Origin: a virus | Virus record (IMG/VR): IMGVR_UViG_3300025767_000104 | Coordinates: 1-27,128 of that record | Length of the DNA: 27,128 nucleotides | Strand: one strand, 5' to 3' | Part shown: one piece after another, positions 1 to 18,777 of the stretch | Position numbering within the stretch: the stretch's first letter is position 1 | How the letters are laid out: each line of letters starts with the position of its first letter | Position numbers and translations under genes: made by a program | Notes under the pieces: model-generated | The model's database searches: none | Told to the model about the DNA's origin: nothing | Seen by the model: the letters and a program-made list of their open reading frames with translations, nothing else

Positions 1-3000
1 TAATTTAATGCTTGTGCTAGTTTAGCAGTCGAAGTATCTAAACGCTTAAAGTGTGTTCTGTTTAACATATCTTTAAATTGTCTATATGCAAACTTAGGTG
101 TACTAACAGGAGCAGTAAAGTGAATAACATCTATGACGTCATTTGCATCAGGTTGTTTAATTAACTGTACTTTTAATTTGTCATCAGTGACATAATAATC
201 TACACTAGGCGATAACAATTCTCCGTTTACACTTACCCATACGTATTGTGCATCAACAGCAGATTTACGCAGTTTAATTTCTCCAACTGTTAACCTGTTA
301 TATGTAATATAATCAACATCTTCAGGTACTAGCGTAGTTCTTGAAACAACATCATAATTAATGCGTTCTAGACCTAATAAGTTGTGATTGGTAAATTGTA
401 TTACTTCAACAACTGCTCCGTTAACAGGCGCAGTGTCTAAAGTAACTGTGGTTCCATTAATTCTATAGTCGCCATCTGTAATTACATAAATTTCAAGTAG
501 GTCTCCTGGGGCACCAACTTCGTCTGCTAAAGTAATACTACTATTTGCAATTTCAAAACGCCATTGTAGTGGAGTATCAATTATAGTACCATTTAAGAAT
601 ACTTTAAGATCTGCAACATCTAAACTACCTGCTGGCATTTGGAACACTTCTAATGGATATTCTCTTTGACTGTTTGCAGGAATTGTATACTGAATATTGT
701 ATCCTGCATTTAATATAGCATTGTCTACTTTAACAATTATATTATGTTCTGTCGGAATAGCATATAATGGTGCAGTTGCTAGTTCAAATACAGTGTCAGT
801 GCCATTGCCAGCAAACGTGTCTTTAGTAATTTGACTATAATTAACTTGCTCAGCTGCTGCAAATACAGTATAATTAATTACTGCATCTTCAGCAACAACT
901 TCATTAAATCTAATAACTGTCTTAGGACCAGTCTCTGACTTAAATGCTACAACTGTTTGCTGTACACCATTAATACTTGCATAAACAGTTGCTCCAGTTT
1001 CCCAATCAACTGTTGTTTCAAATTCAGTAGTTGAACCGTCACCGACAAGCTGACCAAAATCTAATATATTTTGGGTACCTTGTGCAACTGTTACAATAGT
1101 AAGTTCTGCCCCTAGTGTTGCAGAGTTTAATGTTACAGTATTAGCTGTCCAGTTAATAGTATAATCAGTTTGCGGTAATATAACGTTAGCAACTTTTACA
1201 ATAACTGCATCACTACTGTTTGGAGTAACACCTAAATCATAAGTTAGTGTACTATCCATGATATAACTTTGACTATTAATAACACCTTGTCCTGCACTGT
1301 CTCTTGTGTAAACTTTAATATCAAGTGTGTCAAGAATTTGCCCAGGAACTAGTTCTTCGGGGCCGGCACTAGTTGTAGGAGTAACAAATCCGTCGCCGTC
1401 TACAATAATTTCTTCTGCTGCAATGCCACGTGCTGAGGTGTAAGCTAAGTCGCCGCCACTTAGTGCAGTATCATAACTAGTAGCGTCAGGAATAACACTA
1501 CCGTCACTTGTAGTTTTTCTTACAACAAATACATCACCGTCTAACAACTCTATTTCTAAATCCTGTACGTAAACTATATCAGTTACACCGTCACCTGTAA
1601 TACTATTTGTAATTGCATTTACGTTAGTAGCAGTGCCTGCAATAAAGTTAGGATCGTCAATTCTTATACCGTTCTTATAAAGATTGTAAACTACGCCATC
1701 TTCAAGTGGAGCACTTAATTGTACTGCAATTGTAGATCCATCTGCTGTGAATACTTCGTCTTCAAATGTGTTATCAAATTCGTCCCAATTATCTGTATAC
1801 CAACCTGCTGTATCAAATCCTGATGGTCCATCAAAGTCAAAACTACGTACCTCGACACCGCCGTAATCTACGCCTGTCATTAGTTGTGCTAGATCTTTTC
1901 CGTACATTCCTGCAATAGGATTGTATGCAAATTTAATTCTATCTTCTGCATTCAACATATTTAAAGGAATATTGTATTCAACACGAATAACTGCATCTAG
2001 TTTCGGCGGAGTAGTAAATAGTACCTTGCCTTGTTCTCTAACATAAGATTTATCTGTATTTTCAATATTTTCAAATGTGTACTTACTACGCAACTGTAGA
2101 ATATTATCTATATATACATTTACTTTTTTAAGGTTAAGATCCATCGGCCATTCTAGGAAGAATCTATTTTCAAATCCTGTTCCAGTAAATGTTTCGGTTT
2201 TTACAAGTGTATCAAGAGTAAATGTTCCAGTAGTCCTGTCGAATTTAATTTTAATACTCGGGCTTCTTACTAATCCGTTACCTAACACCGCAGTTGCTTT
2301 TGCAAGAGTTCCAGTGTCTAATTGAGATCCTGAAATAACAACTGTCGGGGCACTTGTATACCCATTTCCTGGATATGTAACTACAATTTTAGTAATCTTG
2401 CCGTAGCCTAAATATGCCTTAGCTTTTGCTCCAGTTCCGCCGCCGCCGACTAACGTAACGATAGGTTCATATGTAAAGCCGCTGCCGTTGTCGCCGATTT
2501 TTATTTCAGTTACTTGATAACCGAGATTATCTTTCCACGCTTTGCGAGGATATGTAGTAGTATCTAAGTTATCTTTAGTAATTAATCCATCTGTAATAAC
2601 TGCTGTACTTGCATCGATTGTTTTAGTAATACTATTATATTCTGGAGATAAATCAAAGTCACTAATACTGCTATTTGTAGTATCCATTGCATCATACTGA
2701 CTAACAAATTCTCTTATCTTTGTCGAATACGGTTTAAATTCTTCGACAAATTCTTGATAGCTTGATAAATTGTCATTGTTAAATGTAATGTCTTTCTGAT
2801 TTAATGTTTCTCTATTATGTTTTGCTTTAACAAAGCTTGTTTTAAACATCCAGTCAACTGATTGCTGCTCTGACATTACATAACGCAATGCAGCCATGAA
2901 CAATTGATTGTATTCTACTTCTAGCTCTCCTACAAAAATATTATCTCTAATCGTTTCAAGTATAATTCTTAGTTCGACACTTGGATTATTGTCGTAGAAA

Positions 3001-6000
3001 TTACTATCAAAACTACGGTTATCAAAACCTGTAGTGTTCTTAGAATAGTCATATAAAATGTCTTTAAACTGTATTGTACCGTTCTGACGACCAATTGTGT
3101 CGTAGTTTACAGTATAATCTTCGGTGTCTTGTGCATCTACTTTTCTTAGTAATAACCAGCCACCAGTACCAACTGTTTCAATTTTTACAACATCACCGAT
3201 ATTATTATTTAAACTAGGCAATTCGTAAGATTGACGAATGGTATCATTTATATTTGTAAACTGATTATACTCTTGTGCATACCAATCTGCATAATCCCAG
3301 TATAAATCAACATTATAACTCTGTAGTTTTCTTCTATACCATTGTGTTCCGTTCCATGAGTACATTGCCCATTTGTCTTGGATACTTTCGTCTGCATTAA
3401 CTAATACAGTAAATGGCCTGACAGTAATAGTAGTGTTTTGATTATAATCACTGCCTGCATTCGTAATAGTTACCGCAGTAATTTGACCTAAGTTATTAAT
3501 AGTAATATTAAACTCTGCATCTTGTCCTTCGCCATTAATTTTAAAGCTGGGAGCAACTTTGTATCCTCTGCCTGAATTAGTAATAATTATTCTCGAAATT
3601 CTACCATTAGTAATTACAGGTGTTAGTACAGCAGGTGTAATTTTATTTGTGCTTACAAATGTAAGTTCGGCTAAGGTGTCAGTTGTTAAATCGTATTCTC
3701 TAGATATTGCAGTCGGAACAGCATCTAGTTGAGTTAATTTAGATATATCGTATTCATCGACTATAAGTGTCGACAACAGTTTTAAATTAATTCTTTCAAT
3801 AGTCTGCTTTAACGCTTCAAATCTATTTGTAAACATGCTTTGTCTTGGACGGTTTTGTACCCCATAACGATTTTTTACACTAATTGCAGGATCTGGAACA
3901 ATTCTATTATTGTCATCAAAACCAATTAAACTGTCAAACCATTTACGTTCAATATCTGGATCAGGCTTGCTTGTGTTTAATCCATCTGATATTAATTTAT
4001 ATTGACTGTGTACATTTTGTGTTTTCTTAGGACCTGTTGAATACTTAATATTTAATACTAAATCGTCACTACTAATAAAAGTATCGAAGTTATTAAGTAC
4101 AAACTTATTACTAGATAGTAAACTCAAGAACGGATATCCTTCTGTTCTTGGATTTTCAATAAGTGCAGCAATACTACGAATACTTAATTTTCTGTTTTCC
4201 ATTACAGGTACAGTAACTTTATTAGCTACCCAAAAATAATATTTGTTACTAAACGTTTTACTAACATCATTATATATTATTTTAGTAGAATATCTAGTAT
4301 CTCCAAACAAACTAGTTCCACTAATTTTTGCAGATAATCCGTCTGGAGTGTCTGCAATACTATCCCAAATACTAGGAATAAAGTTACTTTCTACCCATTC
4401 AAATACATCAATTCTTGCATCAGGAGTTAGTACATTCCAATTATTCTTTTGGAATGTAGTCGATCCTTGATATGCATGTGCAAATTTAGCACTGCTAATG
4501 TTCCACCACACTTGGCCAACATGTTTTTCAGTCCAAGCTCTGTTAGCATCAACTGAACTTTCATCTGTATTTCCTGTATTATATACAGCAGGATCAAACG
4601 GTGTTTTAAATGTAATTTCTTGATCTGCTGGACCAGCAATTTTGCCTTGTACTGGATCAATGTAATCAATATAACTTACAATACTGTTTTCACGCTTATT
4701 ATACAGGAATGCTCCGCGGATATTGTCTACGTCTACTGGAGTAATACCTTCACTAATTACGTTCCATGCAAATGTGTTCTTATTTTTTCTAAAGTCCAGC
4801 AATTGTCCTTTACTGCCAGCTACATCACTTGCATCTGTGCCGCCTGATGATCCAACAAGTTGATCTGGCATACCAATATAAACGTGGTTGTCGTTAGCAT
4901 AAATGTTTTCACCAAAAGTAGTTTGTGTTAGTGGATAAACAAATTGCTCTGAATATACTAAACTGTTATTCACAGATTCGTATACATAAACAACACCTTT
5001 GTCAAGTTTAATATTTCTAAAGTTTGTAAACTCTCTATCAAACGTTGTTGCAGTGTCTTCTGTTGCGGAATATACCGTAACATCAAACGTTGTTGGAATT
5101 GTTTGGTCGCCATTTAAACTAGATACTACTAAGTTATCAGAGCCAAAGTCGAGTCCAAAACCAAAACCTTCACTTTCTTCGTTTTGCGGAGGTGTTAGTG
5201 TTTGTGTTAACGTAAATGTTCCGGCTGTTTGAGTATAGACATATACAACACCTTGATTTACTTTGCCAGTATCGTTTAACATTGAACTAACTGCAATTTG
5301 TGTGCCTGCAGGATTAAGTGCAACTTTGTCTGCCCAGGCTGTAACATTGTCAGGCGCAGTTATTATTTGATCTAGTTGGAACTGATCTCCAACTGCGCGG
5401 TAAATTACTAGTGTTGTATCTGATGTGCTATCTAATCTAGTCTGCTGTTTACTAGTTACAACTAATACTTGTGCATCGTCACTAATGTCAAAGCTCTTAC
5501 TAAATTCAACTATATTTTCAATAGGATCAAATACGTCTTCATTGTAAAATGCATTTGCTGTTAAGTTCGGCAAATAACCTACGTAGTCGACGTCAGTACT
5601 AATGCTTGTCCAAGAGTTATTCGAAATGCTCGGTGCCGATGCTCCAACTGCTATATTAGTTACAGCTTTCCACAATACATTTCCTTGTGCAACAATGTTA
5701 CCTGCTTTGTAAGAGTATGTATTATTAAACACTCCGCGGAAGTTTGCATCTTTGCCATGTGCCCAACTAATTTTATTCCAATAGATTGGATCAACAATAA
5801 CATTCTGTTCTGCCGTTGTTGCTTTGCGACAAATATAATAATCGTCTTTGTATATTACAATATCGCCTATCTCAAATGCTGTTAGTTTGTATTCGCCTTT
5901 AAAACTATCAGTTGCTCGTGTACCGTGACGGAATATTTCAATTGCACCAGGGTGTACTCTTCTGCCTGTACTATCAGTTTCGCCTGCGCTAGCAATACTA

Positions 6001-9000
6001 TCACTAGCAACTAGTAGTGTATAGTAATTTCCAGTTTGTACGATTGCAACTTTAGATCCAAACATTCTGTTTGCAGCCCTATACTCGGATACAAATACAT
6101 TTTGAAATCTATAAGTACCATCGCGCAATCTTCTATAGATTGCAATTGCGCCTTCGTTCGCTAAAGTTGGACTTGTTCCTGTTTTTAAAGCAGGAATATT
6201 ATAAATTTGAGTATAGTCTTTGTTTAAACTAAATGGAGGATTAGGTAAACGCTCGATCCCTGATTCTATAGTTTCATCAAAGAACCAATATTCTTCTTCT
6301 AGGATTAGTGGATTAGGAACAATATCAAAGTTACTCGTATGTTCAAATACTATTAGTTTACCAACTAGTGCATTACCTAACACAATACTGTTGTTAATAT
6401 CTGTTATAGTGCCGATTACACGATCAACATCAGTTGCTCCGCGTAATATAGTATTAGCAGTTCTTCGGAGTTGGAATCTGCCAATATTTGATTGTTCTAA
6501 CCATTCGCCTGTTAGTATTTTTAGATAAACTCTAACACTATTGAAGTTGCGCTTCATGAACACAACTTCAGCACTACTAGTTGTGATTGAAGTTAATGCT
6601 AATCCACCTTGGCCATCTCTAGGCGTTTGGACATCTTCAACAACATCGCCTACTTGTGGCTCGTATGCAAATCCTTGGAAGTCGAATTCAGTTAAATCAA
6701 AGTCGACGTATCCGTCCCACAAGTCAACAATTGTTTGTTGCTTATTTAAAATGTCGTATGTAAATCCTGCACTATTAATATCAATTACTCTGTTATCAAG
6801 ATTGTATAAACGAAACTCTGAGACTTCTCCGATTGTTAGCGAATCACTGAATGTTTTGCCTACCCTAGCTACCCATTTATTACTTGGAAGATCTCTCTCA
6901 ACACCGTCTTGTGCATCCGCGCCTGACGGATCTCCCCGATATGACAATTGTTCAATATAACTTACATTGTTTTTGTTAGTAACGTATGTACCAATTGCCC
7001 CAACTGTGTCTTGAATATTGTAATAATCATTAATAGCTCTTACTGATCCTTGTAGTTTAGCATCAGCATAAACTAAGCCTCTACCGTCGTCATAATACAC
7101 ACTGTTGTTTGAATACGAGGGCGTGGAAATCATCCAGAAGCCGCCGACGGCATCACTTGTAGCATAAGTAGATTCTTGTGTGTAAAAGCCTACAAAATCT
7201 AATTCGTTAATAAACAGTTCGCCTGTAACATCAAATACACCGTTGGTATTTTTAACATATACAACTGCACTATCTCTGCGAGATCCTACATATACTACTT
7301 CGGCACTGCCAGTATCAGTTGTTACAATACTACCTATAATCGGCAATGATACAAATGTATCAACATAAAACACATGATCAATTTTTTCAATGATTGTATG
7401 GTCTTGGCTTATAAATTCTGGAGTTATAGCCGAAATTGCTCCATCAAACGGAAGATAAGTATCAAGCGTAGGGTATGCATAACTGCGTCTATTCCAGAAT
7501 AAGTTAATAGTATCGTTAGGTTTTGTACCAATGTACATGTCTTTAGGCGCACGAACTAGTAAATGCGGTGTTTCAGAAATATTATTCGTCAGTCCTGGGT
7601 CACTTGCAACTAAAAGAGTTAATGTTGTACTATCAGTGTCAGCTGCATTTGCAATGTTTATGTATGTGTCAAATGTACTAAATGGCTGATTAGCAATTTC
7701 TGGAAGGATTTCTCTATTTGCTTTCCATAAACTTTCTCTATAACGTACAATGTCATTTTTAGTGTATGTTGCATCAGGTTGGAAATCAAATGTATCTTGT
7801 CCTGTAGATGCATCTATTTTATATGCTAATTTAGTGTTAACATTACTAGCTTGTGGAATGCCCACAACAAGATATTCGCCATCTGGCGATACTGCAATAC
7901 TTTTTCCAAAAGCAGAACTTGCACTAAGGAACAAGTCGTCATTTTCTACAATAATCTCTTGATCTAGTAATAAGTTAGATTGTTCCCTAGTTCTTCTATA
8001 TACTGATACCTTTCCGTTTGCATCATTTGGAGATGATACAAATACGTTAGTATTATTTTTAGTTACTGTAACACTGTCACTAAATCCTTGATCAGTACTG
8101 TCGTATTCTGATGGATTTGTAATTGTTTGAGAATTTAAATACACAGAATTATTTTCTAATACTGCCCATTCGCTGGCATACTCATCAATCCATATTTTCT
8201 GTTTACTATATATATCTTGATTAGTTGCAGCATTAATTCCAGCAACGTCATCAACTCTTACAGTTCTTAACTTAGATATTGCAAATTTTTCTTCTTCAAA
8301 ATCTACTATTTCGTTATTAAAAGGAACTCTTACCCGAACAGTGTTTAAATTAATACTATCAACTTCGTATATTCCATTAATTGTATACTGTGTTGCTCCT
8401 CGGATGCTAATATATTCTCCGACATCAACTATACCAGTTGCCCACTTGTCTAGCGTAATTTCTACTAAATTTAATCCATTATTTGCTATTTCATTTACAA
8501 GTGACTTTACACTAATAGCATTTACATTTGCTCGTATTAGTTGCATAACAGTCCAGCTATTATTGTCTGTATTTGTTATCCATAGTGTATCACCTAAACT
8601 AATTTGAGTAGTGTCTACTGCTGTGAGGTCTAATAAGTTGCCAACAATATAGTCGACATCATCTTCGTTTGTATAACCAGCAGTTCTGATATACTCGCTA
8701 GTTATTGTTTTAGTAGGAAACGGTGCATGTGTATATCCTGCAGGCTTGTCGTATACGTTGTTTGGCAAAATTCTATAAATTTTATCAAAGTTAGTTGTAG
8801 GTAAAGTACTTACAAGTTCAACTGCTTGAGGAGACTCTTGAATGTCGTCTTGCTTCAAGTTGTATTCAACTTGTTGCACATCGTCAACTGCGCCAAAGCG
8901 ACCGACTTGAATTGCCCATTCTTCATAGAACTCTAAGTTGTCAGCTGTGTTGCCAAGTGCATCAAACAATTTAGTAAACACATTCATAGTGCCTTTGTCT

Positions 9001-12000
9001 GCAATAGCACCACGATAGAATTTAAACTGACTTACATCATCGTTAATAATATTAGCAAGATACTGACGCTTTTGATATCCTATCAAATGCTGTGCCATTT
9101 TTTGCTGCTCAATATCAAAACTGTCTGAGTCTAAATCATAAAAATCAGTAAACTGCGTAACTCTGTAATCAAAGTTAGTCATTAATTGAGATACAGGTTT
9201 CTCGTTTAGTTGATGCCAGTTAGATGAATTAAAATTTTGCGATCCTGATACATTGACTGTTGCAACATAATAATATTGCTTGTATTTTACAATATCACTG
9301 ATACGATAATCTTTCCACTGAGCCCAGTCAGTGAATCCTGCATCGTCATATACAAATCCTGGGATATTTAACCCGCCATTCCAGTTGTCTGATCTATACC
9401 CGTTAACACGTATTCTTTCTTGTCTATATCCTGTACTAGGATTATAAATGGTATCGTTAAAGTCTGTTGTATTATCTATTAATACAACATGCTCTTTTTG
9501 TACTAGTGGCAACGATACGTGATATAATCCTTCTGTTGTGCCGATAGTTTCAATTCCAAAACTATTTTGATCTCTTAATAAACTATTAAACTCTGTATCT
9601 AAAAATAAACCGTCAGCTTTTAATATGCTGTATCCGTAAAAGTCATCTTTAATGTTGTCAACTATGTAGAACTCTCTTTGGAATTCTAATAAATTAGCTG
9701 CCGGACTTATTGCAATTAGAGAACTAGCTGCCCATCCTTGTGTTGTCCAGAATAAAAATTGTTTTGCTGATTGACTCCAATTTTCAACTTCGTTTGATCC
9801 TTCGATAACATTTTCAAAACTAAATCCAATATCCTTTTGTCTTACACTATATCCTAGAATAAAATCAACAACTTCTTGAGCAGTGTCAATGCGGGTTCCG
9901 TACTGAATTCTTTTAATAGATTCAGTATTAAAGTCTTTCTTAAATTGTGCTGTTCTTCCGCCGGTTAACGGCAAACTTGGCAATTTAACTATATTGTTTG
10001 TGTCAAATGTTATACTGCTAGTAAATGATTCAATAACTCTATAATAAGTATTATTATGTAATATAACTTCGCCGCTGATATATGATTTATTAGTATCCCA
10101 CTCGATTACTTTTTCAGATATTCCGCCAACTGTTACTGTACTCGACGATGCACCTGGAATTGTTTCATAGTATTCAAAGTACGGCTTTTCTAAATTGTAT
10201 CCTCTTACTATATATCCTAGTTCTGCACGTTCTATAACTATGCCACTATAAACTGCTAATTCAGCAGGACTACTTGTATTTAAAAATACTTGGTAGTTTT
10301 CTTGCGGAACAAATATGCCGTTTTGTGTTAATGATTGCGTAGGCGATCTGCTATCTAGTATTAGATTAAATTTTTCTTTGCTAGTGAACCCTGCGAGTTT
10401 AATACCAATTTGATTAGTAAGTGATGCTAAATCATTTTTGTATCCAGAGTAAACAGTTAGAATGTCGCTTGCAACAAGATTATAGATATAGTTTACTAAC
10501 CCCGAAGTATTAGTTCTGGTAGTTGCAGCGAATGTATTTGGCAATTTTAAATCTTTAAGAACAATAGGTTTATTTGTATCAGTGTATACCCATTGATTTG
10601 CCAAGTTTTTAGAAATTCTCGATACATCAAAACATAATCCCATTGTCATTGCAGGCTTGTTTAGAAGCATTGCAGTTAGGACAGCAAACGGATACTCGGA
10701 ACTTTTGCGCCATGCATTTTCAATCGGTGCGTGATCTCCAAATTTAAAATTTCGAGTTGCATTTCTAATTTCAAAGTTTTTAACATATGTACTGTTTAAC
10801 GGTGATAATAGTTTGCCAGTGCCATCGACAGGAATAAAACTGGTTAATCCAGGGCGGGCATATTTTAAATTAATTCTAGTATTTTCAGGATCTGAGATGC
10901 GTCCTGCTTCTAAGTCTCTCCATAGTACTAAGTTGTCACCTGTGTAAGGTGCAGGACCGTAAACTGTATTCCACCACGACGGCTTGGTAGATAACCCAAG
11001 CATTTCCCAAGGATGACTATGAGGGCGATCTGTATCAAATGCTCTTACATATAATCCTCTCCAAAATCCTGGATTTACATTGCCGTTTGGCGAGTTAGAG
11101 TCTGAATAATTAAATGTCCAGTTGTTATTTCTGTTATAAAATGTATTATTAGTATAATTTTGATTGTTTAAATTTTCTTGTAGCCAAAACTGGAACTCGC
11201 CTAGTAGCGTGTTATCGATTTCAGTTTTAGTAAATTCGTTTGTTCTAAATTCGCCGCCAATAAATGTATTAACATCTAGTCTATCGGTTGAATATTCTGC
11301 TTTAATATTATTAAAGATTCTTTTTTCTAATTCTAATAGTAATTCATCTCTAAAGTCTTTGTAAGCTTTAACATAACTACCGTCGTGACCTCTAATAAAA
11401 GCAACGCCGATTGGGTATTCGTCAATTTCAATGTTATCGTTGCCGGCAAGAGTGGGGCCAGAAACTGGAATATAAAATAGTTTATTCATTCCATTAAAAG
11501 TATAAGACTGTGATGCTGCGCCGGTGCCTGCTGCACTCTTAGTAGTGTACACGGGATAGAACCAACCTCTAGTACCAGTTGCACTATCTTCACCATAAAC
11601 TTTAAACGGTCCTGTCGATACTGGCTCTTCTGCAAGTACTGTATCATCTATTGTTAGTTCAGGATAGTACTTTGGAAATAACCCTAGCTTTGTAGGTGTT
11701 GGAGCAATAAAGCTGCCGTCGGTATTTTCATACTCGTGTATTTCAATTAGGTCATTTTCAACTTGTCCTGCATTAATTGAGACATATCCAGCTGTATCAA
11801 AATTGTAGTCTTTGATGTGTGTTAATTGTACTCCATTTAAATAAATTATTACGCTTGTTGGTCTTAGTGTTTTTAAGTTAAAACTATTAGTAATAGGGTA
11901 AGCAGTTACTCTGCTATCTAACACAGTATAACTAATCTTATTAGATGCGCCTGTTGGAAGCATATCAGAAAAGTAGAATGGCTGAGACTTTAACTTATCA

Positions 12001-14798
12001 GTATTAATAGTTTTTAAGACAAGATCAACATGTCCTTTAGTAGCGCCGTCATATCCTAATGATGCAGCAGTATCCAAGAATGTTTTCTTAAATCTTGCAT
12101 ATTCTCTTTTAGAATATTTTAATGCCTTTACAATATTATAACTTTTATTAGTTATATGGTATAATGCAAGGTTGATAGGTCCACTGTGTTTAACAAATCT
12201 AGTGCCATAACGATCTAAATCTCCTAAGTCGCGCAGGTTACTTGATCCAAGATATGTTCCAGAATAATTTGTAATGTTTTCTAACATACTGTCAACATGT
12301 TCTATTACTTCGCCAAGTGTAAACTGTTTAACATCGTCATTAAGAGGATTACGCTCTAAGTTATACGGAAATTCGTAATAGCCATTAGAGTTTTTTATAG
12401 TTGTAGATGCTGTTTTAATTTTAATAACATCGTCAACTTCTAAATCTTTTAAAAATGTGATAACTGCATTTGTGCCAGATTTATCAATTGTGTAATCGGT
12501 GGTAATTAATTTAAGCTTGTTATTTACAAATATTGCAACTTTTAAATCAGTAAGACTGCTCGAGTTATCGTAAACATCAATTTCAAAATTATTAACTTTA
12601 ATAGCTGTTGCTACATATTCTTTTATAACAAATTGTTTACTAATAGTAGGAGTATTACTAAATCCATTAACATATGAAAATTTAGTTAAGGATGTATATT
12701 TTTTTAGATATCCGCTACTAATAGATTGTGTAAATAAGTCGGTTTCTGTTTGGTAAGTGAATGTATCATTTAATAAATTAAAATCAAATACAATATCACC
12801 GGTGTTATTAATAGACTTATAGCTTAATGGAAATCCTAATTCACTATCTACTGTACCTTCACCTTCAGCATACGAAAATACCTTTGTACCACTAAATGTT
12901 GTAGAACCGTAATAAGTTTCATCAGCAAAGCTGTTACCATTTATGTCGCATATATCAAATGTAGGAGCCTGATTACGAGTTGTTTTTTCTTGTGCAGCAG
13001 TCCATTTGCCGCCGTGATAATGATAACTCTTGCCTGCATTTTTTACACCTTGTGTAACTAAAACTGTTTCGAGATCAATTGGATTAGTGTCAGTAGTTTC
13101 AATTAAACTAAGTTGTCTAACATTTCCAATTTCAACAAATTTAACTTGGTAAATTTTTCCACTTACTAGTATATCCGTGTCTGCTGTAAACAATATACGC
13201 ATGTTATCAGCAAGATTTATGCCATCGATGTTATAACCAATTTGTCCTTCAATTGTGCTGAATACATCTGTTGTAAATGTATCAACTAAATCAACATCTT
13301 GTTTAGCAAATGCGCCAAAGTTATTTAACTTTAGTCCTGCTTCAAATTCTATAATAGGACGTTTTGCACGATTGGCTTCATCCACATTTCTATCTAGATG
13401 GTTAAATTCAAAACTTTTTAAAATCACATCTTTGTGATGCCATCTATTATAACGACTCCATGCGTTTCTATCAGGCGATGCTCTATTAACAACAATATAA
13501 TCTTTTTCAGTTGCATATGCAGTTGCATCACTAAATGGCAAGGTATCAAAATTATCGCTGTCAAAGGCAACACGCTTGTTGTCGCTGTATGCAGCAGGAA
13601 TAATTAAATCTTGGTTTTTAATTAATTTAATTTTGTCGCCTACACCTTCAACATACCAATCATTGGTATTATAGATTTTAGGAGTTACATCTCCTTGAAA
13701 TCTAATTTTCATTCCGTTTGATAATTCAACACCATTAGAACTTGTATATGTTTTTTTACCTAAAATTTCTTCAACTACATCAAGAAATGTATTTTCTTCA
13801 ACATCATAAATTCTAATCTGGCCACTAGTGTCAACTGCGTTTTTACTAATGTAGTAGAGTCTGTCAGGTGCGTTGAACGGAATAGTAAATTCAATTGTGC
13901 CTTTTTCAATGTATGCAACTGCAACTTCTTCGCCTTCTTCGCCTAGCTTACGAATGCCGTCTGGGTATAGTGTCGAAACATTATCATCAGCTGCAAATGT
14001 TACGCTGCCGCCGCTTGGAAGAATAATATATTCTCCTTGGTCATATTCATTACCATAAAGTACTGCATCGAATAGGCCGTCGCCACGAAGTCCTTCTGAC
14101 CCTGCTGTTAATATAGCAGTACCAGGTGTAAAAGTTCTACTGATGGCAATAGCCATAGGATGACCCGGAGCATCAATTTCGAAACGATAAGTCTGACCTC
14201 GATAGAGTTTTAAATTAGGATTACGTGTTAATCCGTCATTAAAAACATAAGAAATGTTATCGCCTTGATCTTCTGTAGTAACAGTATACGTACTAACAAT
14301 ATCTCTACTTTGTCCTCTTACAGGAATACTAATTGGGCCATTTGGCATCCAGTAGTACTCACGGAAGTTTACAAATTTATCCCAATCAATATTTGGATTC
14401 CATGCATAGGTTTCTTGCGAATTTAAACGACTGTGATTAGCAGTATTTGCGCCAAATACACCCAACTGTCCGATATAATCATTGTAATCTTTATAGAAAG
14501 TTACATTGTCATAATTGTCTTTAATAACCGTAGCAGGTTCTAACTGATAATTAGTTCTATCATTAGTTACATCATCGACATAAGTGTCTGTAGTTTTGTA
14601 TGCTTTTGCAGTTGTTCTACCGTAATAACCATTGATCTTTTCAGCAACACCGGGCTGTATAAGTTGGTCAAGTGTGCCTTGTAAAAACTTTTTGTTAGCT
14701 TGTGTTCTAAAGAACTTAGGCAAAAAGTCACTTGCAGTAATTTTATTGTTCTGACCTGGTACAGGCAGAGCACTATCGTTTTGATTATTCTTAGCCAT
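1..14798 (-). CDS. Giant virion structural protein in the gp7 position of the baseplate operon (3' end outside window)
   Basis: Reading from ATG 14798, I translated 4,932 consecutive codons to base 3 without a stop, so the C-terminus lies outside the window. The start overlaps the gp6 stop as TAATG, and a GGAGG lies about 12 bases upstream. Visible parts, by residue: conserved N-terminal block about 31-63 (NKKFLQGTLDQL); YYWMPNGP near 150; cupredoxin/YHYH-like LYRGQTYRFEI...GHPMAI near 195-220; helical block about 1893-1991 (FYEEWAIQVGRFGAV); seven FG-GAP-like blades between 2238 and 3310; five CBM5/12-like modules (about 1567, 1825, 2337, 2972, 3020); GxGY repeats about 3728-3793 and 4092-4154; helical block about 3944-4034 ending in KPYSTKIREF; G(D/N)G(S/T)T fibre-like repeats near 4352, 4584 and 4660. 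T4 gp7 has about 1,030 residues and occupies this position. The role as a wedge or peripheral fibre-like protein is inferred from position and domains; the reading frame is certain. Confidence 0.9.
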   Translation of the reverse strand, partial: MAKNNQNDSALPVPGQNNKITASDFLPKFFRTQANKKFLQGTLDQLIQPGVAEKINGYYGRTTAKAYKTTDTYVDDVTNDRTNYQLEPATVIKDNYDNVTFYKDYNDYIGQLGVFGANTANHSRLNSQETYAWNPNIDWDKFVNFREYYWMPNGPISIPVRGQSRDIVSTYTVTTEDQGDNISYVFNDGLTRNPNLKLYRGQTYRFEIDAPGHPMAIAISRTFTPGTAILTAGSEGLRGDGLFDAVLYGNEYDQGEYIILPSGGSVTFAADDNVSTLYPDGIRKLGEEGEEVAVAYIEKGTIEFTIPFNAPDRLYYISKNAVDTSGQIRIYDVEENTFLDVVEEILGKKTYTSSNGVELSNGMKIRFQGDVTPKIYNTNDWYVEGVGDKIKLIKNQDLIIPAAYSDNKRVAFDSDNFDTLPFSDATAYATEKDYIVVNRASPDRNAWSRYNRWHHKDVILKSFEFNHLDRNVDEANRAKRPIIEFEAGLKLNNFGAFAKQDVDLVDTFTTDVFSTIEGQIGYNIDGINLADNMRILFTADTDILVSGKIYQVKFVEIGNVRQLSLIETTDTNPIDLETVLVTQGVKNAGKSYHYHGGKWTAAQEKTTRNQAPTFDICDINGNSFADETYYGSTTFSGTKVFSYAEGEGTVDSELGFPLSYKSINNTGDIVFDFNLLNDTFTYQTETDLFTQSISSGYLKKYTSLTKFSYVNGFSNTPTISKQFVIKEYVATAIKVNNFEIDVYDNSSSLTDLKVAIFVNNKLKLITTDYTIDKSGTNAVITFLKDLEVDDVIKIKTASTTIKNSNGYYEFPYNLERNPLNDDVKQFTLGEVIEHVDSMLENITNYSGTYLGSSNLRDLGDLDRYGTRFVKHSGPINLALYHITNKSYNIVKALKYSKREYARFKKTFLDTAASLGYDGATKGHVDLVLKTINTDKLKSQPFYFSDMLPTGASNKISYTVLDSRVTAYPITNSFNLKTLRPTSVIIYLNGVQLTHIKDYNFDTAGYVSINAGQVENDLIEIHEYENTDGSFIAPTPTKLGLFPKYYPELTIDDTVLAEEPVSTGPFKVYGEDSATGTRGWFYPVYTTKSAAGTGAASQSYTFNGMNKLFYIPVSGPTLAGNDNIEIDEYPIGVAFIRGHDGSYVKAYKDFRDELLLELEKRIFNNIKAEYSTDRLDVNTFIGGEFRTNEFTKTEIDNTLLGEFQFWLQENLNNQNYTNNTFYNRNNNWTFNYSDSNSPNGNVNPGFWRGLYVRAFDTDRPHSHPWEMLGLSTKPSWWNTVYGPAPYTGDNLVLWRDLEAGRISDPENTRINLKYARPGLTSFIPVDGTGKLLSPLNSTYVKNFEIRNATRNFKFGDHAPIENAWRKSSEYPFAVLTAMLLNKPAMTMGLCFDVSRISKNLANQWVYTDTNKPIVLKDLKLPNTFAATTRTNTSGLVNYIYNLVASDILTVYSGYKNDLASLTNQIGIKLAGFTSKEKFNLILDSRSPTQSLTQNGIFVPQENYQVFLNTSSPAELAVYSGIVIERAELGYIVRGYNLEKPYFEYYETIPGASSSTVTVGGISEKVIEWDTNKSYISGEVILHNNTYYRVIESFTSSITFDTNNIVKLPSLPLTGGRTAQFKKDFNTESIKRIQYGTRIDTAQEVVDFILGYSVRQKDIGFSFENVIEGSNEVENWSQSAKQFLFWTTQGWAASSLIAISPAANLLEFQREFYIVDNIKDDFYGYSILKADGLFLDTEFNSLLRDQNSFGIETIGTTEGLYHVSLPLVQKEHVVLIDNTTDFNDTIYNPSTGYRQERIRVNGYRSDNWNGGLNIPGFVYDDAGFTDWAQWKDYRISDIVKYKQYYYVATVNVSGSQNFNSSNWHQLNEKPVSQLMTNFDYRVTQFTDFYDLDSDSFDIEQQKMAQHLIGYQKRQYLANIINDDVSQFKFYRGAIADKGTMNVFTKLFDALGNTADNLEFYEEWAIQVGRFGAVDDVQQVEYNLKQDDIQESPQAVELVSTLPTTNFDKIYRILPNNVYDKPAGYTHAPFPTKTITSEYIRTAGYTNEDDVDYIVGNLLDLTAVDTTQISLGDTLWITNTDNNSWTVMQLIRANVNAISVKSLVNEIANNGLNLVEITLDKWATGIVDVGEYISIRGATQYTINGIYEVDSINLNTVRVRVPFNNEIVDFEEEKFAISKLRTVRVDDVAGINAATNQDIYSKQKIWIDEYASEWAVLENNSVYLNSQTITNPSEYDSTDQGFSDSVTVTKNNTNVFVSSPNDANGKVSVYRRTREQSNLLLDQEIIVENDDLFLSASSAFGKSIAVSPDGEYLVVGIPQASNVNTKLAYKIDASTGQDTFDFQPDATYTKNDIVRYRESLWKANREILPEIANQPFSTFDTYINIANAADTDSTTLTLLVASDPGLTNNISETPHLLVRAPKDMYIGTKPNDTINLFWNRRSYAYPTLDTYLPFDGAISAITPEFISQDHTIIEKIDHVFYVDTFVSLPIIGSIVTTDTGSAEVVYVGSRRDSAVVYVKNTNGVFDVTGELFINELDFVGFYTQESTYATSDAVGGFWMISTPSYSNNSVYYDDGRGLVYADAKLQGSVRAINDYYNIQDTVGAIGTYVTNKNNVSYIEQLSYRGDPSGADAQDGVERDLPSNKWVARVGKTFSDSLTIGEVSEFRLYNLDNRVIDINSAGFTYDILNKQQTIVDLWDGYVDFDLTEFDFQGFAYEPQVGDVVEDVQTPRDGQGGLALTSITTSSAEVVFMKRNFNSVRVYLKILTGEWLEQSNIGRFQLRRTANTILRGATDVDRVIGTITDINNSIVLGNALVGKLIVFEHTSNFDIVPNPLILEEEYWFFDETIESGIERLPNPPFSLNKDYTQIYNIPALKTGTSPTLANEGAIAIYRRLRDGTYRFQNVFVSEYRAANRMFGSKVAIVQTGNYYTLLVASDSIASAGETDSTGRRVHPGAIEIFRHGTRATDSFKGEYKLTAFEIGDIVIYKDDYYICRKATTAEQNVIVDPIYWNKISWAHGKDANFRGVFNNTYSYKAGNIVAQGNVLWKAVTNIAVGASAPSISNNSWTSISTDVDYVGYLPNLTANAFYNEDVFDPIENIVEFSKSFDISDDAQVLVVTSKQQTRLDSTSDTTLVIYRAVGDQFQLDQIITAPDNVTAWADKVALNPAGTQIAVSSMLNDTGKVNQGVVYVYTQTAGTFTLTQTLTPPQNEESEGFGFGLDFGSDNLVVSSLNGDQTIPTTFDVTVYSATEDTATTFDREFTNFRNIKLDKGVVYVYESVNNSLVYSEQFVYPLTQTTFGENIYANDNHVYIGMPDQLVGSSGGTDASDVAGSKGQLLDFRKNKNTFAWNVISEGITPVDVDNIRGAFLYNKRENSIVSYIDYIDPVQGKIAGPADQEITFKTPFDPAVYNTGNTDESSVDANRAWTEKHVGQVWWNISSAKFAHAYQGSTTFQKNNWNVLTPDARIDVFEWVESNFIPSIWDSIADTPDGLSAKISGTSLFGDTRYSTKIIYNDVSKTFSNKYYFWVANKVTVPVMENRKLSIRSIAALIENPRTEGYPFLSLLSSNKFVLNNFDTFISSDDLVLNIKYSTGPKKTQNVHSQYKLISDGLNTSKPDPDIERKWFDSLIGFDDNNRIVPDPAISVKNRYGVQNRPRQSMFTNRFEALKQTIERINLKLLSTLIVDEYDISKLTQLDAVPTAISREYDLTTDTLAELTFVSTNKITPAVLTPVITNGRISRIIITNSGRGYKVAPSFKINGEGQDAEFNITINNLGQITAVTITNAGSDYNQNTTITVRPFTVLVNADESIQDKWAMYSWNGTQWYRRKLQSYNVDLYWDYADWYAQEYNQFTNINDTIRQSYELPSLNNNIGDVVKIETVGTGGWLLLRKVDAQDTEDYTVNYDTIGRQNGTIQFKDILYDYSKNTTGFDNRSFDSNFYDNNPSVELRIILETIRDNIFVGELEVEYNQLFMAALRYVMSEQQSVDWMFKTSFVKAKHNRETLNQKDITFNNDNLSSYQEFVEEFKPYSTKIREFVSQYDAMDTTNSSISDFDLSPEYNSITKTIDASTAVITDGLITKDNLDTTTYPRKAWKDNLGYQVTEIKIGDNGSGFTYEPIVTLVGGGGTGAKAKAYLGYGKITKIVVTYPGNGYTSAPTVVISGSQLDTGTLAKATAVLGNGLVRSPSIKIKFDRTTGTFTLDTLVKTETFTGTGFENRFFLEWPMDLNLKKVNVYIDNILQLRSKYTFENIENTDKSYVREQGKVLFTTPPKLDAVIRVEYNIPLNMLNAEDRIKFAYNPIAGMYGKDLAQLMTGVDYGGVEVRSFDFDGPSGFDTAGWYTDNWDEFDNTFEDEVFTADGSTIAVQLSAPLEDGVVYNLYKNGIRIDDPNFIAGTATNVNAITNSITGDGVTDIVYVQDLEIELLDGDVFVVRKTTSDGSVIPDATSYDTALSGGDLAYTSARGIAAEEIIVDGDGFVTPTTSAGPEELVPGQILDTLDIKVYTRDSAGQGVINSQSYIMDSTLTYDLGVTPNSSDAVIVKVANVILPQTDYTINWTANTVTLNSATLGAELTIVTVAQGTQNILDFGQLVGDGSTTEFETTVDWETGATVYASINGVQQTVVAFKSETGPKTVIRFNEVVAEDAVINYTVFAAAEQVNYSQITKDTFAGNGTDTVFELATAPLYAIPTEHNIIVKVDNAILNAGYNIQYTIPANSQREYPLEVFQMPAGSLDVADLKVFLNGTIIDTPLQWRFEIANSSITLADEVGAPGDLLEIYVITDGDYRINGTTVTLDTAPVNGAVVEVIQFTNHNLLGLERINYDVVSRTTLVPEDVDYITYNRLTVGEIKLRKSAVDAQYVWVSVNGELLSPSVDYYVTDDKLKVQLIKQPDANDVIDVIHFTAPVSTPKFAYRQFKDMLNRTHFKRLDTSTAKLAQALN
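4865..8090 (-). other. Split seven-blade FG-GAP-like beta-propeller region within the giant protein
   Basis: Seven segments share the pattern F-G-x-S/aromatic, then about 10 residues, then L/V-V-V-G/S-x-P/S. They begin near residues 2238 (GFSDSVTVTKNNTNVFVSSP), 2296 (AFGKSIAVSPDGEYLVVGIP), 2912 (MFGSKVAIV...LLVASDS), 3099 (FSKSFDISDDAQVLVV), 3157 (DKVALNPAGTQIAVSS), 3212 (FGFGLDFGSDNLVVSS) and 3295 (FGENIYANDNHVYIGMP). Several are followed by a V-x-V-Y strand such as KVSVYRR or GVVYVYTQ. This is typical of integrin-type FG-GAP propellers. About 600 residues separate blades 2 and 3, and about 170 separate blades 3 and 4. The count of seven is by eye, and the fold is inferred. Confidence 0.55.
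5595..10100 (-). repeat. Five dispersed CBM5/12-like modules within the giant protein
   Basis: Five short segments share a Y-x-x-G/N-D/E-I-V-x-[aromatic or N]-x(2-4)-[YW]-[YK]-x-A/V pattern, often ending in a W-x-x-[IL] strand. This is the usual look of chitin-binding-type CBM5/12 modules and related phage tail modules. They are at residues about 1567 (NKSYISGEVILHNNTYYRVI), 1825 (WKDYRISDIVKYKQYYYVAT), 2337 (ATYTKNDIVRYRESLWKANR), 2972 (FEIGDIVIYKDDYYICRKAT) and 3020 (YSYKAGNIVAQGNVLWKAVT). The last two are adjacent and sit between propeller blades 3 and 4. Such modules bind sugars or act as structural spacers. Which applies here is unknown. Confidence 0.5.
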
Positions 14799-17700
14799 TA
14801 GTAGCTATAGCCTCCACCTGTTGTATTTGTTGTATTTGTTGATGCACTACTTGTTATTCCTGATGTTAAAGCGGTCGAAACACTATTAATTACTGTACCG
14901 CTAGCTTGTAGATTAGTTGCTGTTAATTGATCAATTGTTTCAATATCACTTACTTTAGCAGCACTTGCAAAAATTTCGTCTGGTTCACTTTTTATTTCAA
15001 ATAAGCTACCAAACGATTGTGTGGTTTGGCGCGGTACTATTAGTATACTTACCAGTTTAGGAGATAGCTCATTTATAATATAGGCGCTAAGTTCTTGGAA
15101 GTAAAACGTCTCACCAAAGTCCCAATTTTCAATATCAAAGAACTTATTAATAGCTTCGATTATGTCTGATTTAAGTTCGTTATCATTAATGACAATGCCG
15201 TTATTTTTAACAATCTTAAACCTAACTTGTAAGTCTGCTGGAGCTTTGTCGCCAAATAAGATTTTATACTTTGCAGGGTGATAAATTACTTCATCACTAA
15301 TACTTTTTATTTTGTTTATTTCACTACCATAACTTCTGAATAATTCATCATTACTTGGCGGCTTAGGATTTACTAAAGTTGTTCCAGCAATATACTGTTT
15401 TACTTGTGTATCATAAGTTTTAGATAAGATGTAAGTGTCAATAATATTACTTGCACTCGGGTCAATTCTATAACCGCTATCAGCAACATGAATATAATGA
15501 AACTTTAAATCAGCGCGGCCAAAATATGCTTTATAATCTGTATTAATAGTAGTATTGTTTAGTGCTTTATTAAGCTTTCTAAATATACCTTCGTCAATTA
15601 GATAAAAGATTTGTCCCTCAGTTCGTGTGCTGTAAGGAGCAATTGCTGTTTCATTTTGTACTACAATTATTTCAGCAGTTGTGTTTGCAAAATACTTAAA
15701 GTCTTCTACTCCGTCAGTTGTTGTATATTTCTTTTGGAAGATTAATTTAGCTGCTGTTTCAATTTCAGTATTTTCTTCACCAACAATCTGTTCAAAGGTA
15801 TCAGGATCATCGACTACGCCATCGTCATCAAGGTCAATAAACTGCACTTGTATCTTACGACTATCTAAGTAACCTTCAACATCTCTATATGCATCAGTAA
15901 TTGTCCAATTAAAGTCTTGTGTAAATGGAGTTAATTCACCTGGCTTCCTGTTAATATTTAAAATATCAATTTTGTCTCTAACAATTTGTCCTGTTGACGG
16001 ATCATAAATTTTATCAGCTGCATCAAAGAAGAATCTAATTTCTTCTGCACTTTCTATTACATATCTTAGATTACGATATGTAATTGTATATTTTTCACCG
16101 TCTGTTTTAAAATACAGCATCCAACTTGCATCAAGATTTTCTCCTGTGATGTCGCCTGCTTTACCTGTAGCAAATGCACTTAATGTATTAATATCTTCTG
16201 CTAATACAATCTTCCACTGTCTATCATATTGGTCATAGCGTAGCGCAAAATCTTTGTATTCAAATGCCTGATCAATTAGTTGTATTTTTACATCGTTAAT
16301 TAATATTTTAGAAAAGTTTGGTATAATTTGTTGTAGTATTGCTCCTGAAGGAATAACATCATTTAACGCTATTGGCGCAATACCATTTTCGTCGATTTCT
16401 ACACCGGATCCTGTTACAGATACAACTTTACACCACTTGTATGTTGTTTTGCCTAAGTGGTCCCCAATTACACCGTCATCCATTAGTGTGCCGTCAGGCA
16501 TAAAATGCTTACCGGAGGGTGCAACAAATTTTAACATTGCACCTGCTTCTAACAATCGTAAACTATTGGCAGTGAAAGAACCTACTGTATAAGAATTTTC
16601 GTCAATGTCTTGTAACACACCTAATGTTTGATTCGTGCTTGTGCTAGACTGTAGCCAAGATGCATTAAGATCACTAACAATAATCTTTGGGTACTTTGCA
16701 AGATAAAAGTTTTGTGCATTTGTACTACTTAAAATACCTTCAATAGTGTTGTATATAACGCCTTCAATATCAGTCTGAGTTGCAAATGTAAATGATTGTC
16801 TTTCAGTGAATTCTTCTTTATAAATAACACCATCATCTGCAAACAAACTAGTATTTGAATATTTTCCACTAGCATCCTTTAAGTCAAAGAAACGACTAAT
16901 ACCGCTCGATATTCTATTTGAACTTTTAGTTTTAATAATGTCTTGGCTAATTGCAAGTGGTCCAATATTATAATCTTCGCCTGTAATTAAACGATTTTGT
17001 GTATAATATGTTGCAGGTGCATTTTGTTTAATTTCTGCATTTGTTTCAGATGCTGTGCCATTGTTAACTGTATAGTTTAATTTAAGCCCTATTGTTAGTG
17101 TTTGCGCAGATCCGTTTCTTGATTGATATGGTATTTCAATACTTACAGTACTAATTGCACTAGGCGTAATTACACTTCGTAAATTATTACTAGATCTATA
17201 ATATGCTCTAAAATTGCCAGATGGCAAATTACCAAATACTCCATCACTAAAGTTTAGATTAATTCTGTCACCAATTCTAGTAGTTACTGCAAAAACGTCT
17301 CTTGTGCTATTAAACAAACTATTGTAAACAACATTATTGCCTTCTACTGCATCAATTTTTTTCCATTCATTGCTTTCAAATCCTGCACTGTTTAGCGAAA
17401 ATAGCCATACATCGCTATCGTTAATATTTTCAGCGTCAATTGCTACAGCTTGATTTGGTGTTGGGTTGTTTATTGCAAAGTTTCCTGTATCAAGTTTGCC
17501 TTGACGGAAGTGCATAAAGAAACCTGTATTAGTACTGCCAGCGCCTTGGCCGTCATCTCGGAAAAGAAATGCAGGGCTGTTTCCAGGTAACGGTGCTTCT
17601 TCTAAAATAGTTTCATCTAAAATGTCAGTGCTCACTACTTCAAAGCGTGTGCTTACACCTTCGATGCGCTTAGTAAACGGGTAAATTGCTTGTCCAGTAT

Positions 17701-18277
17701 TTGTAGCATTTAAGCGATATTTTTGTGTTTGTACATCTGCAATTAGTGCAGACTTCAAAGGATTGCCTATTGAATTAGATAAAGGCAATGCTGAGTTCAT
17801 AATTTTAACAAACTGTTCAAAATAATTTGAATTAGTTTGGTCATTCCATTTAATAGTAATGCCTGATAAATTTAGTCCATTACTATCTAAAAGACTTTCA
17901 GTTGTTTTAATTGTATCAAATTTTAGTAAACCGTTTGCTGCTTGGTTTCTACGTGGATTGTAAGACAGCATACGTGCTAGACGTAATACGCTTTCTCTAC
18001 GTTCTGCTGTTTCAAGGAAGTTTTCACGAGCGTTTAAATCAACACGGAATGATAAGTTTTGCCCAAGGAATGCAATCATATCAATCAGCGCAAGATATTC
18101 GCTAGACTCGATGTAATCGTTAAAATCTTCTGGATAATTTTGACGCAAATAATTGATCATCGTGCGTCTTAGGTTATCAAAATCGTAGCTTTGGAAATCA
18201 GCGTTTCTAAAACTTTGGTAAATTCTTTTCCAGTCCTCTGCTACTAGTAGCCTTGACTGTCTATCATTTGCAGACAT
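14798..18277 (-). CDS. 6: Baseplate wedge protein gp6
   Basis: This is the T4 gp6-type wedge protein (BaseplateJ-like superfamily), which forms the inner ring around the baseplate hub and links to gp25 and gp53. The N-terminal block at residues 24-115 is diagnostic: an LRRTMINYLRQNYPEDFNDY stretch, then SSEYLALIDMIAFLGQNLSF, ARENFLETA and LSYNPRR. At 1,159 residues it is much longer than T4 gp6 (about 660). Residues 815-826 read DLDDDGVVDDPD, an EF-hand/thrombospondin-3-like calcium loop. The C-terminus is Ser/Thr/Gly-rich and ends GGGYSY. I chose ATG 18277 over the in-frame ATG 18283 because AAGGA at 18285-18289 is 7 bases from the former and only 1 base from the latter. The stop overlaps the giant gene's start. 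Identity is strong; the extra length is unexplained. Confidence 0.93.
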   Translation of the reverse strand: MSANDRQSRLLVAEDWKRIYQSFRNADFQSYDFDNLRRTMINYLRQNYPEDFNDYIESSEYLALIDMIAFLGQNLSFRVDLNARENFLETAERRESVLRLARMLSYNPRRNQAANGLLKFDTIKTTESLLDSNGLNLSGITIKWNDQTNSNYFEQFVKIMNSALPLSNSIGNPLKSALIADVQTQKYRLNATNTGQAIYPFTKRIEGVSTRFEVVSTDILDETILEEAPLPGNSPAFLFRDDGQGAGSTNTGFFMHFRQGKLDTGNFAINNPTPNQAVAIDAENINDSDVWLFSLNSAGFESNEWKKIDAVEGNNVVYNSLFNSTRDVFAVTTRIGDRINLNFSDGVFGNLPSGNFRAYYRSSNNLRSVITPSAISTVSIEIPYQSRNGSAQTLTIGLKLNYTVNNGTASETNAEIKQNAPATYYTQNRLITGEDYNIGPLAISQDIIKTKSSNRISSGISRFFDLKDASGKYSNTSLFADDGVIYKEEFTERQSFTFATQTDIEGVIYNTIEGILSSTNAQNFYLAKYPKIIVSDLNASWLQSSTSTNQTLGVLQDIDENSYTVGSFTANSLRLLEAGAMLKFVAPSGKHFMPDGTLMDDGVIGDHLGKTTYKWCKVVSVTGSGVEIDENGIAPIALNDVIPSGAILQQIIPNFSKILINDVKIQLIDQAFEYKDFALRYDQYDRQWKIVLAEDINTLSAFATGKAGDITGENLDASWMLYFKTDGEKYTITYRNLRYVIESAEEIRFFFDAADKIYDPSTGQIVRDKIDILNINRKPGELTPFTQDFNWTITDAYRDVEGYLDSRKIQVQFIDLDDDGVVDDPDTFEQIVGEENTEIETAAKLIFQKKYTTTDGVEDFKYFANTTAEIIVVQNETAIAPYSTRTEGQIFYLIDEGIFRKLNKALNNTTINTDYKAYFGRADLKFHYIHVADSGYRIDPSASNIIDTYILSKTYDTQVKQYIAGTTLVNPKPPSNDELFRSYGSEINKIKSISDEVIYHPAKYKILFGDKAPADLQVRFKIVKNNGIVINDNELKSDIIEAINKFFDIENWDFGETFYFQELSAYIINELSPKLVSILIVPRQTTQSFGSLFEIKSEPDEIFASAAKVSDIETIDQLTATNLQASGTVINSVSTALTSGITSSASTNTTNTTGGGYSY

Positions 18278-18284
18278 GTACATT

Positions 18285-18336: not shown

Positions 18337-18777
18337 TTATTGCTGGAGCAAGCCGTTTTCTTTATCGAATTTAAAGCGTAATTGATCTGTTATACCAAAC
18401 GGAAGTACAGTTATAGTACAATCGATCTGTATACCTTGTTCATAGGTATCAATAACAATATCATCGGCTTTTATTCTAGGATCGTAGTTAATAATACGAG
18501 TAACATCTTCAATTATTGCTTCTTGTACTTCAATTGTAAATGGCTCATAAAGTATATCCCAGATAATAGTCCCAAATGTAGGATCACTTAGTTTTTCAGT
18601 TTGACGTATATGAAAATGGTTTATTAAATCTTGTTTAATAAGCTCAAAGTCGTATACACTAAAACTTTTAGCATCTGCAACTGTAGAAAATCCTCTGTAT
18701 TTTCTACCCGAGACAGCTACTTGTGCAGGTTGACTTACAGTTACTCGTTTATACAGATTTTTTTCTAATTGGCTCAT
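18337..18777 (-). CDS. 25: Baseplate wedge protein gp25
   Basis: This 146-residue protein belongs to the GPW/gp25 family, a small wedge component conserved in contractile tails and in type VI secretion (TssE). It joins gp6 to the hub and helps trigger the sheath. The family core is visible: LSDPTFGTIIWDILYEPF, then VQEAIIEDVTRIINYDPRI (about residues 75-110), then beta strands with QIDCTITVLPFG. The length is close to T4 gp25 (132). It lies 14 bases downstream of the gp5-like gene. Its Shine-Dalgarno AAAGGG overlaps that gene's TAA stop (minus-strand TAAAGGG), 10 bases from the ATG, so translation of the two genes may be coupled. The order gp5-gp25-gp6 supports the call. Confidence 0.93.
   Translation of the reverse strand: MSQLEKNLYKRVTVSQPAQVAVSGRKYRGFSTVADAKSFSVYDFELIKQDLINHFHIRQTEKLSDPTFGTIIWDILYEPFTIEVQEAIIEDVTRIINYDPRIKADDIVIDTYEQGIQIDCTITVLPFGITDQLRFKFDKENGLLQQ

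Follow-up and report, generated by a model that had tools for sequence, protein, structure and literature searches.

The window analysed here is a stretch of 27,128 nucleotides (IMG/VR virus record IMGVR_UViG_3300025767_000104, positions 1 to 27,128) and forms part of an uncultivated viral DNA record. Its minus strand encodes a giant baseplate protein, and within the corresponding open reading frame (ORF 3-14798) seven FG-GAP_2-type repeats occupy amino acids 2237-3352. Judged from the sequence comparisons given below, these segments are one propeller that carries inserts. The explanation that best covers the whole of the data is, on balance probably, that the propeller loaded with its inserts constitutes a platform for host contact at the periphery of the baseplate. 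An earlier note on this DNA had proposed seven FG-GAP-like segments between positions 4865 and 8090. The segments are present at the places it gave, both as FG-GAP_2 matches and as blade repeats in profile comparisons, except that the propeller runs on to amino acid 3352 (window position 4743). The propeller and its inserts are laid out as follows, the boundaries of the blades being derived from AlphaFold2 and profile comparison unless stated otherwise.

7935-8090, minus: blade 1, amino acids 2237-2288
7833-7922, minus: blade 2, strands A and B, amino acids 2293-2322
6153-7856, minus: insertion 1, 568 amino acids in the B-C loop of blade 2, amino acids 2315-2882 (AlphaFold2, profile comparison, INS1-free relatives)
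7656-7793, minus: CBM5/12-like module 1, amino acids 2336-2381 (Pfam PF02839 and family hidden Markov model, HMM)
6159-7646, minus: INS1, all-beta domain of about 500 amino acids, amino acids 2385-2880 (AlphaFold2, Foldseek, hhalign)
6078-6152, minus: blade 2, strands C and D, amino acids 2883-2907
5880-6077, minus: blade 3, amino acids 2908-2973
5760-5879, minus: CBM5/12-like module 2, D-A loop between blades 3 and 4, amino acids 2974-3013 (family HMM, AlphaFold2)
5589-5753, minus: CBM5/12-like module 3, D-A loop between blades 3 and 4, amino acids 3016-3070 (family HMM, AlphaFold2)
5349-5519, minus: blade 4, amino acids 3094-3150
5187-5348, minus: blade 5, amino acids 3151-3204
4929-5186, minus: blade 6, amino acids 3205-3290, with a 39-amino-acid B-C loop of low confidence
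4743-4928, minus: blade 7, amino acids 3291-3352, sequence-wise the weakest in the window (AlphaFold2 and alignment to the relative L280)

The FG-GAP_2 family (PF14312) gives a borderline match when the whole ORF is searched (E=0.001, 19.6 bits, under the cut-off of 23), and the isolated segment scores 24.4 versus 23 bits, above the curated cut-off. The family also matches 17/17 homologues (E<=0.1, best 7.7e-11). FG-GAP_3 (PF13517) has no match in the window's own record, and a sequence search of the whole giant protein against solved structures likewise returned no match. The repeats start at amino acids 2239 (blade 1), 2297 (blade 2), 2913 (blade 3), about 3098 (blade 4), about 3156 (blade 5), about 3212 (blade 6) and 3295 (blade 7). 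Because blades 1, 2, 4 and 5 match each other profile to profile at E 1e-7 to 1e-12, chance resemblance is excluded for these four, while blade 6 matches blade 5 at 5e-8 and blade 3 matches blade 2 at 8e-5. Blade 7 scores 80 versus at most 72 in column-shuffled controls, but ordinary beta windows taken from the insert reach 55-88, and with the window-family profiles alone it is inseparable from these; its identity is established through alignment with L280, whose blade 7 is canonical. The first insertion falls within blade 2 and separates its strand B from strand C, since the joined halves match blade 5 better (1.6e-10 over 52 columns) than the unjoined ones (8e-7 over 29 columns). The spacings of about 600 residues between blades 2 and 3 and about 170 between blades 3 and 4 that were proposed earlier hold as approximate distances from blade start to blade start, but the insertions themselves measure 568 residues, inside blade 2, and 122, between blades 3 and 4.

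The relation between these segments is revealed by orthologues that lack the inserts. L280, L282 and L279 have seven FG-GAP blades between the same two core blocks of the giant protein, without CBM modules or INS1, and FG-GAP_2 is well above its cut-off in L280 (92 bits, E=3e-26) and in L282 (80 bits, seven FG-GAP motifs). That the window segments are one propeller is shown directly by the window-family propeller which, once stripped of its inserts, can be aligned over its whole length to that of L280 (480 columns, E=1e-28); the corresponding values for L282 and L279 are 4e-25 and 2e-20. The alternative that the segments are separate beta-domains, or resemble blades by chance, could draw on the borderline Pfam score of the whole ORF, on the weakness of blade 7 and on low scores against full propellers in structural comparison, but the end-to-end alignment with orthologues that have seven motifs, together with 28 predicted strands, seven sets of four, makes it very improbable. 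Separate unrelated domains, an outcome that the earlier note named as refuting it, were rejected on the basis of these insert-free orthologues. The conserved elements that flank the propeller are the following.

8811-11558, minus: conserved core block 1, amino acids 1081-1996 (28-31% blastp identity with the giants of Atu_ph07 and PA5oct)
8151-8204, minus: beta-hairpin KIWIDEY..EWAVLEN, amino acids 2199-2216, just upstream of the propeller and also found in the propeller-less PA5oct
3849-4736, minus: conserved core block 2, amino acids 3355-3650, where similarity to propeller-less relatives resumes

An AlphaFold2 model of amino acids 2185-3380, made with 43 homologues, is in line with this. 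It contains 28 strands, i.e. 7 x 4 (predicted local distance difference test, pLDDT, 85; predicted template modelling score, pTM, 0.67), where the four strands per blade are our assignment from the DSSP string of the model. Together with the Foldseek matches and the natural insert-free orthologues, the model supports the earlier proposal of a single seven-bladed propeller with inserted domains. Foldseek searches of the PDB returned integrin alpha headpieces at probability 1.00, alongside other propeller proteins, and searches of viral models returned FG-GAP proteins (e.g. A0A6J5S3H5, E=4e-13, template modelling (TM) score 0.46 by target length). The fold is therefore of the integrin type, as had been suggested, but the calcium loops are not: the A-B loops comprise 1-5 residues, constant in length over the 43 homologues as assigned from the model, and because they are this short integrin-type DxDxDG loops are ruled out here.

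The inserts combine two kinds of domain. The first insertion consists of a CBM5/12-like module followed by INS1, whereas the second, 122 amino acids between blades 3 and 4, consists of two CBM5/12-like modules. The whole segment, with all modules taken together, matches CBM5/12 (PF02839) at 31.9 versus a cut-off of 26.2 bits, and all three modules are present in 43/43 aligned homologues. INS1 was modelled with confidence as mainly beta (mean pLDDT 84), has an internal duplication (hhalign 89%) and found no match better than E=0.009 among PDB structures with Foldseek; it is probably a new all-beta domain. Further modules occur in other lineages: L028 has an extra CBM-like module between blades 4 and 5, L062 has one within blade 6, and at eight loci 52-67 amino acids are added between blades 1 and 2. 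The otherwise plain propeller of L282 (L282:12332-14191) contains an E1_FCCH-like stretch at residues 319-386, between blades 4 and 5 (E=1e-4, under the cut-off).

Loop lengths were compared over the 43 homologues, the loops being assigned on one predicted model. The total variation in residues is 0 for the A-B loops, 268 for B-C, 255 for D-A and 26 for C-D, to which L069 adds about 120. In a propeller the B-C and D-A loops lie on one shared face and, given this topology, a single face accounts for about 78% of the variation in length, a trend with exceptions. A strict rule of inserts on one face only was rejected in view of C-D inserts in blade 5, which are large in L069 and smaller in L014, L058, L073 and L078. 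Sequence divergence is also quicker in the propeller and its inserts than in the core: for the most distant sequences sampled, identity is 39-44% in the former versus 55% in the latter, with the CBM1 module alone as an exception (54%).

An FG-GAP propeller was found at this site in none of six cultured giants examined, including PBECO4, RaK2, PA5oct and Atu_ph07, and a tblastn search with the propeller segment gave no match in 50,697 phage records. In propeller-less relatives the same interval is either short or holds other content. In PBECO4 and RaK2 the ends of the alignment are 112 residues apart, versus about 1264 in the window, and PA5oct keeps the hairpin (KVWID...WAVAVV) with the downstream core directly after it. 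In the relatives L231, L235, L236 and L273 the two core blocks are separated by 2.2-2.4 thousand residues, and the interval in L231 has no Pfam match. Visual inspection suggested a LamG-like domain at the propeller site of SCTP-2, which was dropped for lack of Pfam support. L257 and L278, with FG-GAP_2 at 89-98 bits, were counted as propeller-bearing.

The distribution was mapped on an unrooted tree of core block 1 (90 rows, quick method; each scan covered the top 80 out of more than 500 relatives). Presence of the propeller appears as a single change, with all bearing rows on one side of a branch that has 100% support, and the states are nested: no propeller, plain propeller, propeller with CBM modules, and propeller with CBM modules and the large insert. 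The plain forms L280 and L282 and the CBM-bearing L267, L283, L284, L260, L287 and L294 branch outside most rows that bear INS1. INS1, which is absent in L260, L280, L282 and L294, requires three changes, either a single gain with two losses or gain more than once. A direction of change is suggested by the cultured propeller-less phages, which sit outgroup-like.

FG-GAP proteins also occur elsewhere in cultured relatives. In Sinorhizobium phage Phosso (PV764938, about 48-69 kb; L130, L132, L134, L136) most of the 55 FG-GAP_2 matches of the record fall in two ORFs, 3702 and 3182 amino acids long, which encode giant multi-propeller proteins. Atu_ph07 (NC_042013, 243.0-243.8 kb; L131, L133), of which the own giant is propeller-less, has a free-standing FG-GAP ORF of 409 amino acids that may be the 'Hemagglutinin protein' matched by Foldseek.

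The gene neighbourhood places the giant protein in the baseplate. All large ORFs with family matches in the window are on the minus strand, and those around the giant are listed here.

3-14798, minus: giant baseplate/virion structural protein, 4932 amino acids, truncated by the window edge (ORF; phrog_10938, 1021 bits)
14798-18283, minus: gp6-like baseplate wedge subunit (phrog_10646, E=8e-295)
18337-18777, minus: gp25-like baseplate wedge subunit (PF04965)
18792-21278, minus: gp5-like hub/spike with VgrG3-like C-terminal domain (PF21277, E=3e-26)
21303-22715, minus: ORF of 470 amino acids without a family match, between the hub gene and the gene for a structural protein of 1007 amino acids
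22715-25738, minus: phrog_11190 protein (family match)
26039-26893, minus: phrog_12050 protein (family match)

The giant is a member of phrog_10938 both by profile similarity (1021 bits) and by its synteny with gp25 and gp6, and it is encoded directly after gp6, which is the position of the gp7 gene in T4. The order gp6-giant recurs in Atu_ph07, PA5oct, PBECO4, RaK2 and Phosso, and the annotation of the PA5oct counterpart states that it was detected by virion mass spectrometry. Relatives have the giant as a complete ORF of 4.7-5.6 thousand amino acids, followed by a 200-amino-acid protein and then by a tail-fibre-like protein. Glycine-rich repeats of the GxGY type occur at amino acids 3711-3790 and 4090-4210 of the giant, and similar repeats fill the corresponding interval in Atu_ph07 and Phosso. 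The VgrG3-like domain of the gp5-like hub suggests a spike that cuts the cell wall, and the 470-amino-acid product has a high content of Pro, Ser, Thr, Gly and Ala and contains DAFGGAGSTVSRSDPL repeated in tandem. One metagenome bin from the Red Sea includes a contig of 335 kb on which a homologue of the inserted domain (62% identical) is encoded together with a T4-type gp23 capsid gene, in support of a T4-type jumbo phage. A metagenome-assembled genome named Neomarinimicrobiota includes two contigs (335 and 153 kb; L297/L308, PBPT01000016.1, and L296) with a gene for the giant protein, the larger one being that with gp23; these are probably phage contigs binned into a bacterial genome, and the name of the bin need not be that of the host.

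Several known systems resemble parts of this arrangement. Integrin alpha headpieces (e.g. 9ind, 5e6u), a main cluster of Foldseek matches, have seven FG-GAP-type blades, and the propeller of some integrins carries an inserted I domain. That insert lies between blades 2 and 3 and the integrin blades have calcium loops, whereas the window has its insert inside blade 2 and no room for such loops. A0A6J5S3H5 and A0A5J6VJ74, from uncultured Caudovirales and giant viruses, share the propeller fold but are not known to be inserted in a baseplate wedge protein. The cultured phrog_10938 giants of the RaK2/PBECO4/PA5oct/Atu_ph07 type share the position after gp25 and gp6 and the core blocks, and differ in lacking the propeller at the site. 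According to passages of PMC4901313 that mention no large inserts, gp131C of phiKZ (PDB 4GBF) is a seven-bladed propeller at the baseplate periphery of a jumbo phage with suspected receptor binding; gp131C is a separate gene product and is absent from the 50 best Foldseek matches of the window propeller. The beta-propeller of the phi11 receptor-binding protein Gp45 is described as the host-recognition domain of the baseplate, with a cavity that could hold N-acetylglucosamine (PMC4901313), but Gp45 is a dedicated trimeric siphophage protein of five blades, with an N-terminal strand closing the propeller. T4 gp7, a peripheral wedge protein in contact with gp8, gp9 and gp10 (PMC3004832), is likewise encoded directly after gp6, but has 1032 amino acids versus about 5100 for the giant and showed no sequence homology to it in profile-profile comparison (hhalign probability <1% for all blocks). 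Our literature search found no paper on FG-GAP propellers in jumbo-phage baseplates.

These comparisons strongly support one seven-bladed FG-GAP_2 propeller between two core blocks of the giant encoded after gp6, loaded in the lineage of the window with a CBM5/12-like module and a 500-residue beta-domain in blade 2 and with two further CBM5/12-like modules between blades 3 and 4. The propeller would probably be a compact platform at the baseplate periphery from which these modules project as loops, for the most part on a single face, and the baseplate could in this way touch surface glycans or another receptor of the host ahead of sheath contraction. Recognition of a receptor or glycan by the propeller module is plausible considering its absence in relatives that share the core, its faster evolution and its variable CBM5/12-like load. 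A more specific version can be offered only tentatively: in a clade of uncultivated T4-type jumbo phages the baseplate wedge may contain a receptor-recognition head, the propeller having been acquired once by the giant at the gp7 position and then loaded stepwise with CBM5/12-like modules and a new 500-residue beta-domain on a face of the ligand type. A number of observations weigh against such a role. The propeller module is not hypervariable, the 120-residue C-D insert in blade 5 of L069 lies on the other face, and separate tail-fibre-like genes are present downstream of the giant. We infer from the model that the seven blades close into one ring, but its pTM of 0.67 comes with modest Foldseek TM-scores by target length (at most 0.35 for integrins and 0.46 for the viral FG-GAP protein of 473 amino acids). 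Moreover, sugar binding by the CBM5/12-like modules is uncertain, because the canonical tandem-tryptophan (WW) motif of chitin binders was not seen by eye in modules 1-3.

The main rival is that the propeller is a docking platform within the virion, with inserts that would take hold of tail fibres or of adjacent proteins of the wedge instead of the host. The giant gene occupies the gp7 position and is followed by a tail-collar-fibre-like gene, T4 gp7 itself is the binding hub for gp8, gp9 and gp10 (PMC3004832), and the module is kept in 43/43 aligned homologues without being hypervariable. Nevertheless, relatives with the same gp6-giant core lack the propeller as a whole, the extra loop modules are lineage-specific, and CBM5/12-like modules are commoner in surface binding. 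Docking is a possible but rather unlikely explanation, and we favour the host-contact head. An enzymatic role, in which the propeller or INS1 would cut surface polysaccharide or peptidoglycan during adsorption, is improbable. Many propellers are glycan-active enzymes, CBM modules frequently accompany glycosidases, and an enzymatic function was considered for phiKZ gp131C as well (PMC4901313), but no catalytic family is among the Pfam matches, the Foldseek matches of the propeller are mostly integrins and other non-enzymatic scaffolds, and INS1 has no solved relative.

If host contact is indeed the function, a contractile phage would have the parts that touch its host built, as inserted domains, into a structural protein of the baseplate. 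With a recognition head built into the wedge, host range could evolve via added loops and not via the exchange of fibres. The blades, INS1 and the CBM modules would be defined, foldable constructs. Because the plain, the CBM-bearing and the fully loaded forms survive together, sequence would then reveal in what order the parts of a complex adhesin were put together.

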